A program made the translations under genes and the position numbers. Positions 740-31,234 of a DNA stretch of 31,407 nucleotides are shown here, in pieces. The stretch is from a virus. The stretch is from positions 1-31,407 of IMG/VR virus record IMGVR_UViG_3300008107_001254, one strand, 5' to 3'. The notes under the pieces were generated by a model. That model was not told the origin of the DNA. It made no database searches and saw only the letters and a list, made by a program, of their open reading frames with translations. Position 1 is the stretch's first letter. Each line of letters begins with the position of its first letter.

Positions 740-771
740 TTTGGAACTTTCCAAAAAAATCCGTATATTTA
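740..771 (+). promoter_or_regulatory. Rightward promoter for the candidate structured RNA
   Basis: TTTG (740-743), a 20-bp spacer and TATATTTA (764-771) match the Bacteroidota promoter form with one mismatch in the -7 box. Transcription would start near 777-780, exactly where the first hairpin of the candidate RNA begins. A palindrome, TTTGGAA-CT-TTCCAAA (740-755), covers the -33 box and could bind a regulator. Confidence 0.5.
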
Positions 772-777
772 TTAATG

Positions 778-1070
778 TAGGTCATCTGACAGGAAAAAGG
801 ATGACTATTCGCCCTGAGGTAGCCAGATAGACACGTTAATAATATTCCGTGCATCAGTAAGGGTCTTAATGGTGGAGTAAACTGTGGGATTGAGATAACA
901 TCCAAACATAACGGTTGAGGCGTACCATCTACAAAAAAGGTCAATAACTCGTAATTCAAGTATGGGGCAATTGTTGAGGTTCACATATTAACATAGACTG
1001 GCTTGAAGAAGATTATTGGGTGTGTAGAAACAGGTGTAAAAACCCATAGGAGGAAGAATTGTGCCCATAC
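778..1070 (+). ncRNA. Candidate structured non-coding RNA, family unknown (about 290 nt)
   Basis: This block lies in a 489-bp gap without a convincing protein gene. Its G+C is about 41% by hand count (118 of 290), far above the A/T-rich DNA on both sides. Visible helices: a 5' hairpin GGTCATC (780-786) with GATGACT (800-806); CACG (832-835) with CGTG (848-851); GGAT (887-890) with ATCC (900-903); TGGGT (1017-1021) with ACCCA (1042-1046); and a long closing stem GTATGGG (960-966) with CCCATAC (1064-1070), continued by CAATT (968-972) with AATTG (1057-1061). A promoter sits directly upstream and a second one (1086-1117) lies after it, so the RNA could be an independent transcript. I do not see tmRNA, RNase P, tRNA or 6S signatures. 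There is no clear U-tract terminator, so the 3' end is uncertain. It could also be a long leader. Confidence 0.5.
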
Positions 1071-1085
1071 AAAAGTAACAAAATA

Positions 1086-1117
1086 TTTGGAAATTATATA
1101 AAAAATACTTATATTAG
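1086..1117 (+). promoter_or_regulatory. Rightward promoter for the first early-type gene
   Basis: TTTG (1086-1089), a 20-bp spacer and TATATTAG (1110-1117) repeat the arrangement and the -7 sequence of the leftward promoter at 686-716. The predicted start point is around 1123, leaving a short leader before the ATG at 1137. Confidence 0.5.
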
Positions 1118-3052: not shown

Positions 3053-3288
3053 GTGAATTAGAAATACCAACAGATTATTGGACATTAGACCCTCAGAATA
3101 AAAGAGAGTTGTGTTTAACCATAGTTGATGCAATTATAACACTACTTGATAAACTTGTTAATCCCGAATACAATAGAATTACCCTTTTAAATACAATATT
3201 GGAAAGTTCTATTCAGACAAACGAAAAGGAAGAAAATTATGAGATTTGTCAGGTATTAAAAGATATTAAACAAATCATCAATGAATAA
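3031..3288 (+). CDS. Small protein of unknown function (85 aa)
   Basis: An 85-residue acidic helical protein starting MEKSVKIGELEIPTDYWTLD. Its ATG lies inside the end of the zinc-finger gene (22-bp overlap) and its own stop overlaps the start of the sigma-like gene by 8 bp, which suggests translational coupling in one operon. No motif recognised. The position between two predicted DNA-binding regulators could mean an accessory role in transcription, but that is inference only. Confidence 0.65.
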   Translation: MEKSVKIGELEIPTDYWTLDPQNKRELCLTIVDAIITLLDKLVNPEYNRITLLNTILESSIQTNEKEENYEICQVLKDIKQIINE

Positions 3289-3799
3289 AGAGATAGAAAA
3301 ATATATCACAACAAATTACTACGAACTATTAAAAATTGCTAAGAAGATAACAAAGAACCACGATTTAACACAGGACTTATTACACGAGGTTATCTTGCAA
3401 CTATACAACAAAGAGAACATAGTACTACGAGAGTACTGTGACGAACAGATTAAGTATTACATTGTATCTGTCATCAGAATTAACTGGCACTCACAAACAT
3501 CACCATTCTATTATAAGATAAGAAAAGAAAGTAGCAAGTACACCAACATAGATGAGATATATAACCTTGCTGATGATACACAGTTAGAGTTTGAAAAACA
3601 ACAATTATTTGATATATTAGAAGAGAGTTGGACCGAACTTGATTGGTTCCGTAAATCACTATTTGAAATGTATATGACACTTGGTTCAATGAAGAAGGTA
3701 TCAAAACAAACAAGAATACCTGTGTCATCAATAAGTAGATACCTACGTGAAAGCAAAGACCTGATAAAATTAAACATAACAATTAGAACAAATGAATAG
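3281..3799 (+). CDS. Phage sigma-70-like transcription factor (172 aa)
   Basis: Residues 12-70 (YYELLKIAKKITKNHDLTQD, then LLHEVILQLYNKENI) resemble sigma region 2, including the D-L-xQD-L-hxEV-hhxLY pattern of ECF-type factors. Residues 126-156 (SLFEMYMTLGSMKKVSKQTR, then IPVSSISRYL) look like the region 4 helix-turn-helix. Proteins of this type are frequent in Bacteroidota phages and are annotated as sigma-like or transcription factors. It probably redirects host RNA polymerase to phage promoters, perhaps the AATTTATATTTAATAATA elements found before the structural genes. It overlaps both neighbours by 8 bp. Confidence 0.7.
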   Translation: MNKEIEKYITTNYYELLKIAKKITKNHDLTQDLLHEVILQLYNKENIVLREYCDEQIKYYIVSVIRINWHSQTSPFYYKIRKESSKYTNIDEIYNLADDTQLEFEKQQLFDILEESWTELDWFRKSLFEMYMTLGSMKKVSKQTRIPVSSISRYLRESKDLIKLNITIRTNE

Positions 3800-6051: not shown

Positions 6052-6633
6052 ATGAAAATAGAATTTATAATACCAACTTACTCAAGAGTAAATCATTTAA
6101 TAACCATCATCGGTTCGTTAATGGCACAATCAAATCCTAATTGGAAAGCACACGTGGTTGCAGATTGTCCACCTGATGAGATACAGGACGCAATGAAAAC
6201 CATTGTAGAGTTTTTTAATGATGACAGAATTAAATTAACCATCTTACCTGAGAGACATAATGATTGGGGTCATACACCTCGTCAATATGGATTGGATAAT
6301 GCAACAGAGGAATGGGTTGTAATGACAGGTGAGGATAACTATTACACCCCTGAGTTTGTAGATATAATGTTAGAGGAAAGTAAGAACCATCACTTTGTTT
6401 ATTGTGATATGGTCCATAATTGGATTAACAGGGATTACATTCCATTAATATCCAAACTACAATTAGGTAGAATAGATATAGGAAGTTTTATGGTTAAGAC
6501 CAATATGGGTCAGAAGATTAAATTAAAGAAAGAACACGAGTGGGCTGATTGGTTTTTTGTAGAAGAATTTCAGAAGAAGTATAAGGTTGCAAAGTATAAG
6601 AAGGTAAATAAGATATTATATGTCCACAATTGA
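6052..6633 (+). CDS. Family 2 glycosyltransferase (193 aa)
   Basis: The N-terminus FIIPTYSRVNHLITIIGSL is the nucleotide-binding strand and helix of GT-A fold family 2 enzymes. GHTPRQYGLDNATEEWVVMT is followed by GED (residues 93-95), which takes the place of the usual DxD metal site. The protein is short, essentially a catalytic domain without membrane segments, so it is likely cytoplasmic. It sits between the two terminase genes and overlaps the large subunit by 14 bp. A role in glycosylating virion proteins or modified DNA bases is possible; the acceptor is unknown. Confidence 0.8.
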   Translation: MKIEFIIPTYSRVNHLITIIGSLMAQSNPNWKAHVVADCPPDEIQDAMKTIVEFFNDDRIKLTILPERHNDWGHTPRQYGLDNATEEWVVMTGEDNYYTPEFVDIMLEESKNHHFVYCDMVHNWINRDYIPLISKLQLGRIDIGSFMVKTNMGQKIKLKKEHEWADWFFVEEFQKKYKVAKYKKVNKILYVHN

Positions 6634-7951
6634 TATAACACCCACAAGAAGACAGTCACAAGCGTGGAGATACCTCACAGATGATAAAACTAATATAGTT
6701 TTATTTGGAGGGTCAGCCGGTGGTGGTAAGTCGTGGTTAGGATGTTTATGGATAACAACCCTGTGTTTAAAGTATACAGGTATAAGATGTTTAATAGGAC
6801 GTTCAGTATTAACACAATTAAAACTAACAACATTAAACACATTGTTTGACCTATTAGGTACTATGGGATTTAAGAGTGGTCAACACTTTAATTTCAATGG
6901 TCAGTCAAACGTATTAACATTCTATAACGGTTCAGAGATTATATTCAAGGACCTTGCGTACAATCCATCAGACCCTAACTATGATAGTCTTGGTTCCCTT
7001 GAGATTAGTGCAGCATTTATAGATGAAGCGGCACAGATTACATCATTAGCATTCAGTATAGTTAAATCACGTATAAGATATAAATTAAACGAGTATAACC
7101 TAACACCAAAGGTATTAATGACCTGTAACCCCTCAAACAATTGGATTAAGAAAGACTTTTACTTACCATTCATACAGGAAAGATTACAACATAACCAAGT
7201 ATTCATACCATCATTACCGATGGACAACCCACACTTACCAGCATCTTATATTGAGATGTTAAAAGAGTTACCACCACAACAACGTAAAAGATTGTTAGAA
7301 GGTGATTGGGATTACTTAGAGGATAGTGATAGTTTATTTAAGTTTGAAGAGATTACCAATTCGGTATTTAAATTTGAACCAAATCCTACTGACAAGAAAT
7401 ATATGACGGTTGACGTTGCACGATTTGGTGATGACAGGTCCGTAGTAATGATTTGGGTGGGTATGGTTCTAATATCTTGTCACATCTATAGGAAAGTATC
7501 CACCACAGATTTATCGTCCGAAATTAAGGACTTAATGAGGTTTCACGGTGTACACCCACAACAGGTAATTATAGATAGTGATGGCGTAGGTGGTGGTGTT
7601 GCAGACCAAATTAAAGGAACAAACTTTGTAAACAATGCAAGACCATTACACGAACAGAACTTTACAAACCTTAAATCACAATGTTATATAAAACTATCTG
7701 AAATGTTTAAGGACGGAAAGATAAGTTTAAACCTATTAGAACCGGCCGTGGTAGAAGACTTAACACAAGAACTACTTGCAATTAAACTAAAGGACGTAGA
7801 TAAAGATAATAAGGTTGGTGTAATGAGTAAGGATGAGATGAAAAGAATACTTGGTAAGTCACCTGACTTAAGTGATGCACTTATGATGAGAATGTATCAA
7901 GAAATAAAAGCAAATAAAACAACGGGTAGATATTCAATATCATTCGTTTAA
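6620..7951 (+). CDS. terL: Terminase large subunit (443 aa)
   Basis: DNA-packaging motor. Walker A is GGSAGGGKS (residues 30-38), Walker B AAFIDEAA (131-138) with catalytic Glu, and the coupling motif VLMTCNPSN (165-173). The C-terminal RNase H-like nuclease shows TVDVARFGDD (263-272), VIIDSDGVGGGVAD (316-329) and a late Asp in SPDLSDALMMRMY. Together these give a complete ATPase plus nuclease of usual length. It drives DNA into the prohead through the portal encoded at 29882. The start overlaps the glycosyltransferase gene by 14 bp. The closest family is the Terminase_3/6 type, but the packaging mode (cos, pac) cannot be told. Confidence 0.95.
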   Translation: MSTIDITPTRRQSQAWRYLTDDKTNIVLFGGSAGGGKSWLGCLWITTLCLKYTGIRCLIGRSVLTQLKLTTLNTLFDLLGTMGFKSGQHFNFNGQSNVLTFYNGSEIIFKDLAYNPSDPNYDSLGSLEISAAFIDEAAQITSLAFSIVKSRIRYKLNEYNLTPKVLMTCNPSNNWIKKDFYLPFIQERLQHNQVFIPSLPMDNPHLPASYIEMLKELPPQQRKRLLEGDWDYLEDSDSLFKFEEITNSVFKFEPNPTDKKYMTVDVARFGDDRSVVMIWVGMVLISCHIYRKVSTTDLSSEIKDLMRFHGVHPQQVIIDSDGVGGGVADQIKGTNFVNNARPLHEQNFTNLKSQCYIKLSEMFKDGKISLNLLEPAVVEDLTQELLAIKLKDVDKDNKVGVMSKDEMKRILGKSPDLSDALMMRMYQEIKANKTTGRYSISFV

Positions 7952-19731: not shown

Positions 19732-21354
19732 ATGAGAGGTTCAGTTTTAATAGCATACGAAGAAGGAAGACAAACTTTTGGTAATCCTTTATACGAAATA
19801 AAAATAAATGGTACAGACACAAGAGATTATCAATGGTCTGAGGCTAATAGTCTTTATAGCACATATATCTTTTCAGGTAATACATTATCAGCATCTGTAC
19901 AAAATGCAGGTTATGGTCAAATACCGTACATAAATGTATTTTTAATCGAATATACCAATGATGATGTTAATGGTGATGGTGGTCTTAAAACAACACAATT
20001 AACAGGTGTAACAGGAAATAATCAATTTGGATATTTAAATGTAAATAATATACCAATTAACCCAAGTGCAAACTGTTATGATTTTATTGTTGTAGTTAGT
20101 ATGGGTGTAACACAAGGATGTGCACCATTTGGTTCATTAACAGGTTTAACAGGTAGTGGTTTTCTTTATACAACAACTTCTGAAATTAAAACTAAATCTG
20201 TTGGTGTAACAGTAGCCGATGATGGTGATGTATATGTTGGTGTCTTTTCACAATTTACAAATACAGGATATATCGGAAGCGTTGGTGGAACAACTCAAAT
20301 TGGTCCTGTTTTAAAAATAGATAGATATTACACACAACCCGATAGTACATTTAACAGTAAGTTGGCATTAGGTACAAGTATTTTTGTTAACGATATTGAA
20401 TTACAAAATGATGGAAAGGTATTAGTTGGTAATGGTGTAACAGGTTCAACGGGTAATGCTTTAAGTAGATTAAATACCGATGGTACATTAGATGGTACTT
20501 TTACAAGGTATACTTTTGAGAGTTTTCTTGGTGGTAGTGAAATGGTTCAAGATGTTGTACAACAAAGTGATGGTAAGATTATCGTGTCAGGAATTTTTCA
20601 AAGAGTTAATAGTCTTGAATATAATTTTTATATTAGATTTAATTATGATGGTACAATAGATAACACTTATTATTCGGGTGGTACAGGAAGTGGATTTAGT
20701 GGACAAGTTAGTTGTCAAATTGATTTACAAGATAGAACATATTTTTTTGGAACAGGTAATAACACTTTTCAAGGTTCAACATTTGGATGTATATTAAGAT
20801 TAACACAAAACGGACAATTAGATACAACATTTAACGGTACAGGTCGTGGAGGTTTTACAAGAACAAGTGCAACTGTTTTAGTTAATAACATATTAATACA
20901 ATCAGATGGTAAAATATTATGTATTGGTCTGTTTGATAGATATAATGGACAACCTTGTTCACAAAACATTGCAAGGTTAAATAACGATGGTACATTGGAT
21001 ACAACATTCAATCCTAACGGTTTAGGGTTATCATCATTATCTCCGGCGTATTTGACTTTTACAACAGAAACATTAAACGAAGATGAAAACAAATATTTAA
21101 TCGTTGGTCAATGGTCAGGTGCAACATATAATGGTGTGTCAATACCAAACGACATTTTCTTTTTAAATACTGATGGTAGTTTGGGTAATAACACAAATTT
21201 AGGTACAGGTATAGTAGGAACACCACAGACCTGTAAACTATTACCAAATGGTAGTTATCTTATTACAGGTCAAATAACAGGTTTCAACGGTACATCAATA
21301 ACTAACGGAGGATTTTTACAAATAAGTTCAACGGGTCAATTACAAAACTGTTAA
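19732..21354 (+). CDS. Delta-60 repeat beta-propeller tail protein (540 aa)
   Basis: From about residue 160 the protein is built from repeats like LNTDGTLDGTF, FNYDGTIDNTY, LTQNGQLDTTF and LNNDGTLDTTF, each followed by strands such as QQSDGKIIVSGIF and IQSDGKILCIGLF. This is the delta-60 repeat (DUF5122 type), a beta-propeller known from bacterial surface and secreted proteins. The first 150 residues form a separate domain. It lies among the tail genes, so it probably helps in host binding or covers the tail tip. An A/T-rich start element (ATATATACATATATATG) precedes it. Confidence 0.7.
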   Translation: MRGSVLIAYEEGRQTFGNPLYEIKINGTDTRDYQWSEANSLYSTYIFSGNTLSASVQNAGYGQIPYINVFLIEYTNDDVNGDGGLKTTQLTGVTGNNQFGYLNVNNIPINPSANCYDFIVVVSMGVTQGCAPFGSLTGLTGSGFLYTTTSEIKTKSVGVTVADDGDVYVGVFSQFTNTGYIGSVGGTTQIGPVLKIDRYYTQPDSTFNSKLALGTSIFVNDIELQNDGKVLVGNGVTGSTGNALSRLNTDGTLDGTFTRYTFESFLGGSEMVQDVVQQSDGKIIVSGIFQRVNSLEYNFYIRFNYDGTIDNTYYSGGTGSGFSGQVSCQIDLQDRTYFFGTGNNTFQGSTFGCILRLTQNGQLDTTFNGTGRGGFTRTSATVLVNNILIQSDGKILCIGLFDRYNGQPCSQNIARLNNDGTLDTTFNPNGLGLSSLSPAYLTFTTETLNEDENKYLIVGQWSGATYNGVSIPNDIFFLNTDGSLGNNTNLGTGIVGTPQTCKLLPNGSYLITGQITGFNGTSITNGGFLQISSTGQLQNC

Positions 21355-29881: not shown

Positions 29882-31234
29882 ATGAGTGAAATACAAAAAT
29901 ACCAATTAGGTAAAATCAACTTTACACAAGAACCGTTACTTCCTATATTCAGTGAAGTATTCAATCGTTATCCTTGGGTATGGTATGGTGAGAACAACTT
30001 GATGCCACAGTATCTAATTAGTAGATACAACAACTGTGCAATACATAAAGCGGTGGTAATCTCAAAGAGAGAACAAATAATGGGTGATGGTCTTGTATCA
30101 TTAAACAACCCAATGGCTACAGTCAACCTTGTTAACAAGAGTGAGAACGTATCTGATGTAATGAAAAAATGTGCATTGGATTTAATTTTATTTGGAGGTT
30201 ATGCATTGAATGTAATATGGTCAAGAGACAGAAAGAACATTGCAGAGATTTATCACTTAGACTTTAGTAGAGTTAGATGTGGTAAGTTGAATGATGATGA
30301 TGAAATTGAAAAGTATTATTATTCACCTGATTGGTCTAATATAAGAAAATATGTACCACAAGAATATGATGCATTTAATCAAGAAGATGGTGGACCATCA
30401 CAGATATATTATTATAAACAATATCAACCAAGCAATAGTTACTATCCTCAGCCTGATTATAGTGGCGGTCTTGCTGCAATTGAGATTGATGTAAATATAA
30501 AAGAGTTTCACGCAAACAACCTAAAGAATGGTATGATGCCATCTTTATGGATTAATATGAACAATGGTATTCCTGGCGAGGAAGAACAAAGATTGGTTAC
30601 AAGAGCATTGGAAAGTCAGTTTACATCTGTAAACAATGCGGGTAGACCAATTATATCATTTAACGAAAGTAAAGAACTATCCCCTGAAATTACACAAATA
30701 CAAACATCTGCAAATGATGGTTACTATGCAGCAATCTATGATGACATTGTACGTACTATATTGTCCTCTCACAGGGTTTCTTCAGGTGAACTATATGGTA
30801 TATCCACCGCAGGTAAATTAGGGTCAAGAAACGAAATTGTGGACCATTCTGAGTACTTTAGAAAGATGGTTATCCAACCATACCAAAAAGAACTATTGGG
30901 ATGTTTTGACAAGTTAATGTCAATGAAGTTTGAAAAACCAACATCATTTGAAATTAAACCATTGTCAATTTATCTAACGGGTGACGTTACAGATAATCCA
31001 GCGGTGATTGACAAACCTGTTACACCTGTTGAAGCGGAAAGTGAAAAGATGGTTATCAACGAAAACATCAAAGGTTTAAAAGGTCGTGAGTACCAAAACC
31101 TAATGAGAATTGTTCGTGAATACAATAAAGGAAAAATTTCAAGACAACAAGCAGCACAAATGTTAATGGCCGGTTATGGTCTAACAGAAGAAGAATGTTT
31201 TGTTTGGTTGGGAGAAGATGAAGAAAACGATTAA
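29882..31234 (+). CDS. Portal protein (450 aa)
   Basis: The 450-residue protein has the usual portal layout: an N-terminal part (RYPWVWYGENNLMPQYLISR, then YNNCAIHKAVVISKREQIMG), a central part (DLILFGGYALNVIWSRDRKN, and FHANNLKNGMMPSLWINMNN), a stem and helical crown (TILSSHRVSSGELYGISTAG, DHSEYFRKMVIQPYQKELLG) and a C-terminal acidic helical tail. This is the dodecameric channel at one head vertex through which the terminase (6620) packs DNA. The gene is located after the capsid gene and far from the terminase, the reverse of the usual order. Confidence 0.85.
   Translation: MSEIQKYQLGKINFTQEPLLPIFSEVFNRYPWVWYGENNLMPQYLISRYNNCAIHKAVVISKREQIMGDGLVSLNNPMATVNLVNKSENVSDVMKKCALDLILFGGYALNVIWSRDRKNIAEIYHLDFSRVRCGKLNDDDEIEKYYYSPDWSNIRKYVPQEYDAFNQEDGGPSQIYYYKQYQPSNSYYPQPDYSGGLAAIEIDVNIKEFHANNLKNGMMPSLWINMNNGIPGEEEQRLVTRALESQFTSVNNAGRPIISFNESKELSPEITQIQTSANDGYYAAIYDDIVRTILSSHRVSSGELYGISTAGKLGSRNEIVDHSEYFRKMVIQPYQKELLGCFDKLMSMKFEKPTSFEIKPLSIYLTGDVTDNPAVIDKPVTPVEAESEKMVINENIKGLKGREYQNLMRIVREYNKGKISRQQAAQMLMAGYGLTEEECFVWLGEDEEND

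Follow-up and report, generated by a model that had tools for sequence, protein, structure and literature searches.

A previously undescribed family of structured RNA behind a divergent promoter of tailed phages

A G+C-rich island between divergent genes

We analysed a window of 31,407 bases, the whole of an IMG/VR virus record from a tailed phage, with the terminase gene at 6620–7951 and the portal gene at 29882–31234. Among named phages, its terminase is closest to that of Flavobacterium phage 11b (45% identity). Two genes of unknown product diverge within it: a minus-strand gene of 74 amino acids (423–647), which served to find relatives, and a plus-strand gene of 84 amino acids (1137–1391). 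Between them, at 776–1070 on the plus strand, lies the element described here, which we call the class A RNA. Its G+C content is 41%, compared with 19% in the 100 nt upstream and 12% in the 60 nt downstream, and a step of this kind is present in all homologues (39–42% in the RNA versus 13–25% upstream).

No protein-coding signal was apparent in the island. When the window copy was compared with 12 homologues, substitutions were spread evenly over the three codon positions (281, 275 and 274), and indels were mostly not multiples of three, with gap lengths such as 1, 2, 5, 13, 14 and 20 breaking every frame; a protein frame within the island was ruled out on these two grounds. Neither could the element be assigned to a known RNA family. 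Rfam 15 (4,227 families) gave no match at the gathering cut-off anywhere in the window, nor at the RNA in five homologous loci (L038, L046, L087, L090 and L099), and permissive scans (down to E values of 5–10) returned unrelated chance matches only. ARAGORN found no tRNA or tmRNA genes in the window. An initial annotation, made from the sequence alone, had proposed that divergent promoters flank a structured RNA whose family was not recognised, in a G+C island of about 41% with A/T flanks, without a convincing protein gene and without a tRNA, tmRNA, RNase P or 6S signature. These claims held: the structure through covariation (see below), the G+C contrast as measured above, the absence of a gene through even codon phases and frame-breaking indels, and the lack of a known family through the absence of any Rfam, tRNA or tmRNA match.

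The predicted stability of the fold contributes nothing to this assignment. The fold energy of 776–1070 was no better than that of dinucleotide shuffles (z = +0.28); across homologues, z for the whole RNA ranged from −2.5 to +1.9, with only L087 below −1 and 13 of the 14 copies at chance. With z near 0 in most homologues, we dropped minimum free energy as evidence for an RNA; the case for the class A RNA rests on conservation and covariation. Composition had been a good hint where an energy test would have failed.

Fourteen homologues in varied gene contexts

Searches seeded with the two neighbouring proteins and with DNA patterns from the island gave a set of 14 distinct homologous copies, about 234 to 295 nt long, from phage contigs of IMG/VR: those of the window, L002/L031 (99%), L006/L040, L007/L037, L038/L039, L042, L043, L046, L087, L090, L093, L099, L110 and L125. 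They have invariant blocks in common and differ by replacement of stems and by peripheral arms that are wholly gained or lost. A covariance model built from them (R1) hit 15 records, each exactly once, and gave no hit in 17 related records; because records were gathered with patterns from the RNA itself, their number is no measure of its abundance. Fourteen sequences are a small set, some of them close to one another, all are from metagenomic contigs and no expression data accompany them.

A blastn search against named phages and plasmids gave no relative, and model R1 found nothing in Flavobacterium phage 11b or Cellulophaga phage phi10:1, the two named phages whose terminases are nearest to that of the window. 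For cellular genomes of Bacteroidota the search used only a single pattern, which misses some known variants; two hits from this genome scan (L083 and L084) were rejected as chance matches without homology. The literature that we searched holds no description of the class A RNA, although both that set and Rfam are finite and an unpublished or unindexed description is not excluded.

Some homologues occupy the same locus and others lie at different ones. The first gene 3′ of the RNA varies (84, 68, 71, 132 and 159 amino acids, among others), and at 13 loci there was no common class of downstream gene (families F12, F9 and F7, plus unclustered genes), so that what would be expected of a riboswitch or gene-specific leader was not met. 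In the contigs that have both in order (the window, G002, G003, G007, G008, G010, G013, G014 and G015), the RNA lies on the terminase strand, 3.7–5.5 kb upstream of the terminase gene; G006 and G011 would match this order if, as we infer, their contigs are circular permutations. The copies in L087 and L099 have other genes around them, and the terminase of the window was not found in these two records, which are perhaps fragments. As the first genes vary and the context of L087 and L099 differs, the class A RNA is not bound to a single neighbour.

Two further genes of the window deserve mention. A 172-amino-acid protein (3281–3799), kept near the RNA in several records, is weakly similar to a family of phage sigma factors (E = 1e-4) and could possibly be a late transcription factor. 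A 540-amino-acid protein with DUF5122 beta-propeller repeats is encoded in the structural region (19732–21354).

Promoters and transcript ends

The RNA is preceded by a promoter of the Bacteroidetes type (740–771, plus strand), with a −33 element TTTGG (740–744) and a −7 element TATATTT(A) (764–771). The published consensus is TTTG/TAnnTTTG, with the last base of the −7 element at −5 (PMC6847099). By this numbering we predict that transcription starts at about 776, the first base of the outermost helix; in 13 of the 14 homologues, 5–6 nt separate the end of the −7 box from the RNA. On the basis of promoters and terminase, we infer that the hosts of these phages are probably Bacteroidota.

A second promoter of the same type, belonging to the downstream gene, follows at 1086–1116 (TTTGG at 1086–1090 and TATATTA at 1110–1116, plus strand). 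In most copies such a promoter is found 11–50 nt past the conserved end of the RNA; the summed downstream promoter score over 13 homologues was 128, versus 34 ± 11 in resampled sequence, and none of 500 resamplings scored as high. Four loci (L006, L046, L087 and L099) have no clear second promoter, only weak ones.

How the transcript ends is less well defined. There is no intrinsic terminator (hairpin plus U tract) near 1070, a U-rich stretch follows the RNA in L099 only, and the 3′ boundary is set by conservation alone, so the 3′ end is not shown. Without a terminator at this point, the RNA may continue into the next gene. Terminator-like sites are also scarce further along: between 1000 and 14000 we found one weak site on the plus strand (three sites in total, fewer than the 5.6 expected), and the strongest plus-strand sites appear only at 28.8–29.5 kb.

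A proposed fold of seven nested helices, supported by covariation

Comparison of the 14 aligned copies shows seven nested helices, of which P0 to P3 form a 5′ domain with a four-way junction and P6, P4 and P5 stack in a 3′ arm. P0 (776–780/929–933) encloses P1, P2 and P3 and closes the junction; TGTAG/CTACA in the window is replaced by TGTGG/CCACA in L090 and L125. P1 is a hairpin adjoining P0 (781–805; stem 781–786/800–805) with a conserved loop (YGACAGRAAAAG), changes on both sides in four of its six pairs and 100% of cells paired. The initial annotation had placed a hairpin at the transcription start; this held, with P1 coming after P0 and the RNA beginning two bases before the previously given 778. 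The P2 arm (812–863; 812–815/860–863) has a variable inner stem, and 82% of its cells are paired in the MAFFT alignment. The last pair of its CCCN/NGGG stem covaries (T-A, C-G and A-U), N being mismatched in four sequences. The P3 arm (869–928; 869–873/924–928), with an inner stem of variable length, has 100% of cells paired; AT, GT, CA, TC or CT followed by GGT stands opposite ACC and the corresponding partners.

The two domains are separated by an invariant A-rich joint, AAAAAGG (934–940; alignment A1). P6 (941–946/1014–1019) was absent from our first model and emerged from an unsupervised helix scan of all column pairs. P4 (955–960, TTCAAG; 1002–1007, CTTGAA) is the helix that covariation supports best: all six pairs covary, the homologues carry 11 distinct helices (for example TTCAAG/CTTGAA, TACAGA/TCTGTA, CTTGAA/TTCAAG, ATAAGA/TCTTAT and TATGAA/TTCATA), 64 of 66 pairs are intact and none of 5,000 strand shuffles was as good. 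Within P4 lie an invariant segment, TATGGGGCAA (961–970), and the P5 hairpin (973–992; 973–977/988–992), whose stem reads GTTGA/TCAAC, GTTGG/CCAAC, ATTGA/TCAAT, ATTAA/TTAAT or CTATT/ATTAG in different homologues. Near the 3′ end is a conserved segment (1047–1066) in which a Shine–Dalgarno-like GGAG is kept and is followed by AATTGTGCCC; GGAG is found in the last 40 nt of all 14 copies and aligns at one place in 13. We also observed a GTG about 7 nt after GGAG (1047–1063 in the window), kept in 13 of the 14 homologues; the frames that follow have no common length, and a GGAG–GTG arrangement is unexpected in a phylum that makes no use of Shine–Dalgarno sequences.

Statistical controls supported this model. 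With a tentative pseudoknot counted along with the nested helices, 96.1% of alignment cells were in standard pairs, compared with 82.4% in shuffles, and 87 cells were changed on both sides, compared with 27.6. The covariation score was 0.450 versus 0.176 when shuffled, a value that none of 500 shuffles reached. These shuffles ignore relatedness among the sequences, whereas a slide control keeps it; moving the partner by 1–3 columns left only 34–47% of cells paired. Compensatory changes thus exceed both shuffled and slid controls without a codon signal, which meets the criterion for a structured non-coding RNA. In the helix scan, P4 (2.42), P6 (1.76), P1 (1.50), P3 (1.31) and P5 (1.04) scored above the maximum of 0.64 from 60 column-shuffled alignments; P0 and P2 are weaker helices that on their own fall short of that maximum in the unguided scan. 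Unguided RNAalifold recovered P0, P1, P3, P6, P4 and P5, and P2 with its register off by one. Over the nested pairs, read on the plus strand, we counted 46 G-U cells and 5 A-C cells, the latter being G-U if the opposite strand were the RNA; a single invariant U-G column pair accounts for 14 of the 46, and setting it aside leaves 32 to 5. As G-U outnumber A-C, and together with the position of the promoter, the plus strand is the RNA.

The 3′ domain may also be pseudoknotted. Positions 964–966/1064–1066 (GGG/CCC) and 968–970/1059–1061 (CAA/TTG) are mostly complementary across homologues, which would pair the invariant GGGGCAA with the 3′ end across P4. The only changes are one-sided, from G-C to G-U, alongside broken cells, and GGGGCAA itself does not vary; we regard this pseudoknot as plausible, perhaps probable, on weak inference, and it is not proven. 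A second candidate, between the P5 loop (CACA) and a TGTG after P6, was paired in 16 of 20 cases, equal to shuffles, and is unsupported.

Of the pairings proposed initially, a closing stem (960–972/1057–1070) held in part, since its inner parts recur with one-sided support only and cross P4, whereas what had been offered as a possible crossing helix (955–959/1003–1007) proved to be the strongest of all, P4. Among inner helices, P2, P3 and P5 held; P6 had not been listed and was found by both scan and RNAalifold. Of the checks that had been suggested, compensatory changes among homologues were found, and a conserved protein frame through the region was not.

Other RNAs in the same slot

In relatives with the same divergent 74-amino-acid gene, the slot is occupied by an unrelated RNA of about 95 nt, which we call class B. 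Its two hairpins are joined by an 8-bp pairing between their loops, and the second ends in a U tract (a terminator). The fold is strongly supported by covariation (99.6% of cells paired; 50 double-sided changes versus 12.7), and class B is absent from Rfam. Alignment A2 holds the copies L003:762–855, L011:1242–1335(−), L021:902–995(−), L046:2506–2600(−) and 14 more. Class B lies directly before different genes, often of replication type. The two classes have the same kind of promoter, the +1 start and the slot in common, but neither sequence nor fold. Only one record, that of L046, holds both, and there they are divergent.

Several further elements were observed. A related contig carries a diverged class B copy (L025:2015–2108(−); 41.7 bits with model R2), and the records of L044 and L052 have second, weaker class B copies. 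L014 and L016 have a third type of non-coding element in the slot, upstream of the divergent gene on the minus strand of the locus; with two copies only, the element starts with GTAGATGGCGCAGAATATC in L016, and CTTCAGGTAAACTCCTGTTGGACCGTGTAAAA is found in both. In L022, on the reverse strand and upstream of the match, the leader of the divergent gene has an insert with a strong hairpin (GTGATAGG...CCTATCAC) that is missing from its close relative L023 and is possibly another leader RNA.

Comparison with known RNAs

GOLLD and ROOL, which occur in phages and prophages, are large ornate RNAs of unknown function, with lengths from about 600 to more than 800 nt (PMC12286853). Like them, the class A RNA is phage-encoded and non-coding, with an elaborate fold, likely pseudoknots and no known protein partner (PMC12286853). 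It differs in its size of about 234–295 nt, short of the roughly 600 nt or more of that group, in having no Rfam match, in the lack of an adjoining tRNA island (there is no tRNA in the window) and in heading an operon behind a promoter. The HK022 put RNA, which makes polymerase resist termination (PMC9378689), is likewise structured and opens a long phage transcript. HK022 put consists of two stem-loops; the class A RNA is far larger and of different architecture, its operon is almost without terminators and a second promoter follows it. 6S-flavo (RF01685) and Flavo-1 (RF01705) are structured RNAs of Bacteroidetes (PMC2864571), a setting that the class A RNA resembles, but it matches neither down to E values of 5–10 and is built around a four-way junction rather than one long hairpin, the shape of 6S RNA. 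The packaging RNA of phi29 (pRNA) is also a small structured phage RNA, and class A lies on the strand of the packaging genes; it has no Rfam match and is 3.7–5.5 kb from the terminase gene.

Discussion

We conclude that 776–1070 is almost certainly a working RNA, because diverse related phages keep its fold with matching changes in the stems, although there are no transcript data. As no match was found in the Rfam and literature sets searched, we take it to encode a structured non-coding RNA whose family, carried by tailed phages, had not been described before. The initial annotation claimed no function for it. Our main reading, that this new family is a stand-alone RNA made by the host polymerase and probably acting in trans, is one we favour by a modest margin (probability of roughly 0.55), with both its transcription and its trans action inferred. 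In this reading, unmodified host polymerase would make the RNA without a phage factor, an inference from a promoter of host housekeeping type. The RNA would be its own transcription unit, as suggested by the separate promoter behind it in most homologues and by the differing first downstream genes. It would then act in trans through its fold, with host or phage machinery as its target; we infer this because a cis-acting antiterminator would face almost no terminators, and this part of the reading rests on an absence.

A ribosomal target is only weakly suggested, by nothing more than the kept GGAG. In hosts of this phylum, mRNAs lack Shine–Dalgarno sequences and the anti-Shine–Dalgarno is retained (PMC6847099). 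A bolder reading, which we infer and consider unlikely, is that GGAG pairs with the free anti-Shine–Dalgarno end of 16S rRNA, left unused by host mRNAs; if that were true, the RNA would redirect or block translation at the start of infection.

The alternative that survives best is a leader that opens the rightward operon and acts in cis, the nascent RNA either binding the elongating polymerase and making it processive, as the HK022 put RNA does, or controlling the genes behind it. This remains possible. In its favour, the RNA begins at +1 and comes first in the operon running towards the terminase, no terminator closes it, and the leader RNA that relatives carry in this slot is a different one, closed by a terminator immediately ahead of a gene. 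Against it stand the second promoter 11–50 nt after the RNA in most homologues, the varying first downstream gene and the scarcity of plus-strand terminator-like sites (one weak site between 1000 and 14000), which leaves little to antiterminate. We consider a catalytic RNA, a self-cleaving or self-splicing ribozyme, unlikely. The long invariant unpaired stretches (CTACRAAAAAGGT, TATGGGGCAA and ACTGG) around a possibly pseudoknotted 3′ domain would suit one, but no Rfam ribozyme or intron family matches, and with its place between genes rather than within one, the RNA has no exons to join. Even less probable is a DNA element, such as a replication origin or packaging site, with the fold acting as single-stranded DNA: the location is the divergent point of the genome and replication-type genes adjoin the slot in class B relatives, but the 46 to 5 excess of G-U over A-C fits a plus-strand RNA and not DNA, and the element is fixed to the +1 of a promoter. 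A decayed protein gene or composition artefact, for which one could cite the protein gene behind the same promoter in L003 and L004 and the fold energy at chance, is all but excluded by the lack of codon periodicity, the conserved paired columns, homologues in other contexts and covariation.

We see the novelty in the family itself, as phage RNAs of unknown function, such as GOLLD and ROOL, are already known. A defined architecture and a covariance alignment are now available for this new RNA family, which diverse phages carry at one promoter slot. Energy-based screens would overlook it, the fold being no more stable than that of shuffled sequence. The filling of the same promoter slot by a different structured RNA in relatives raises the question of why these phages begin a transcript with a folded RNA.
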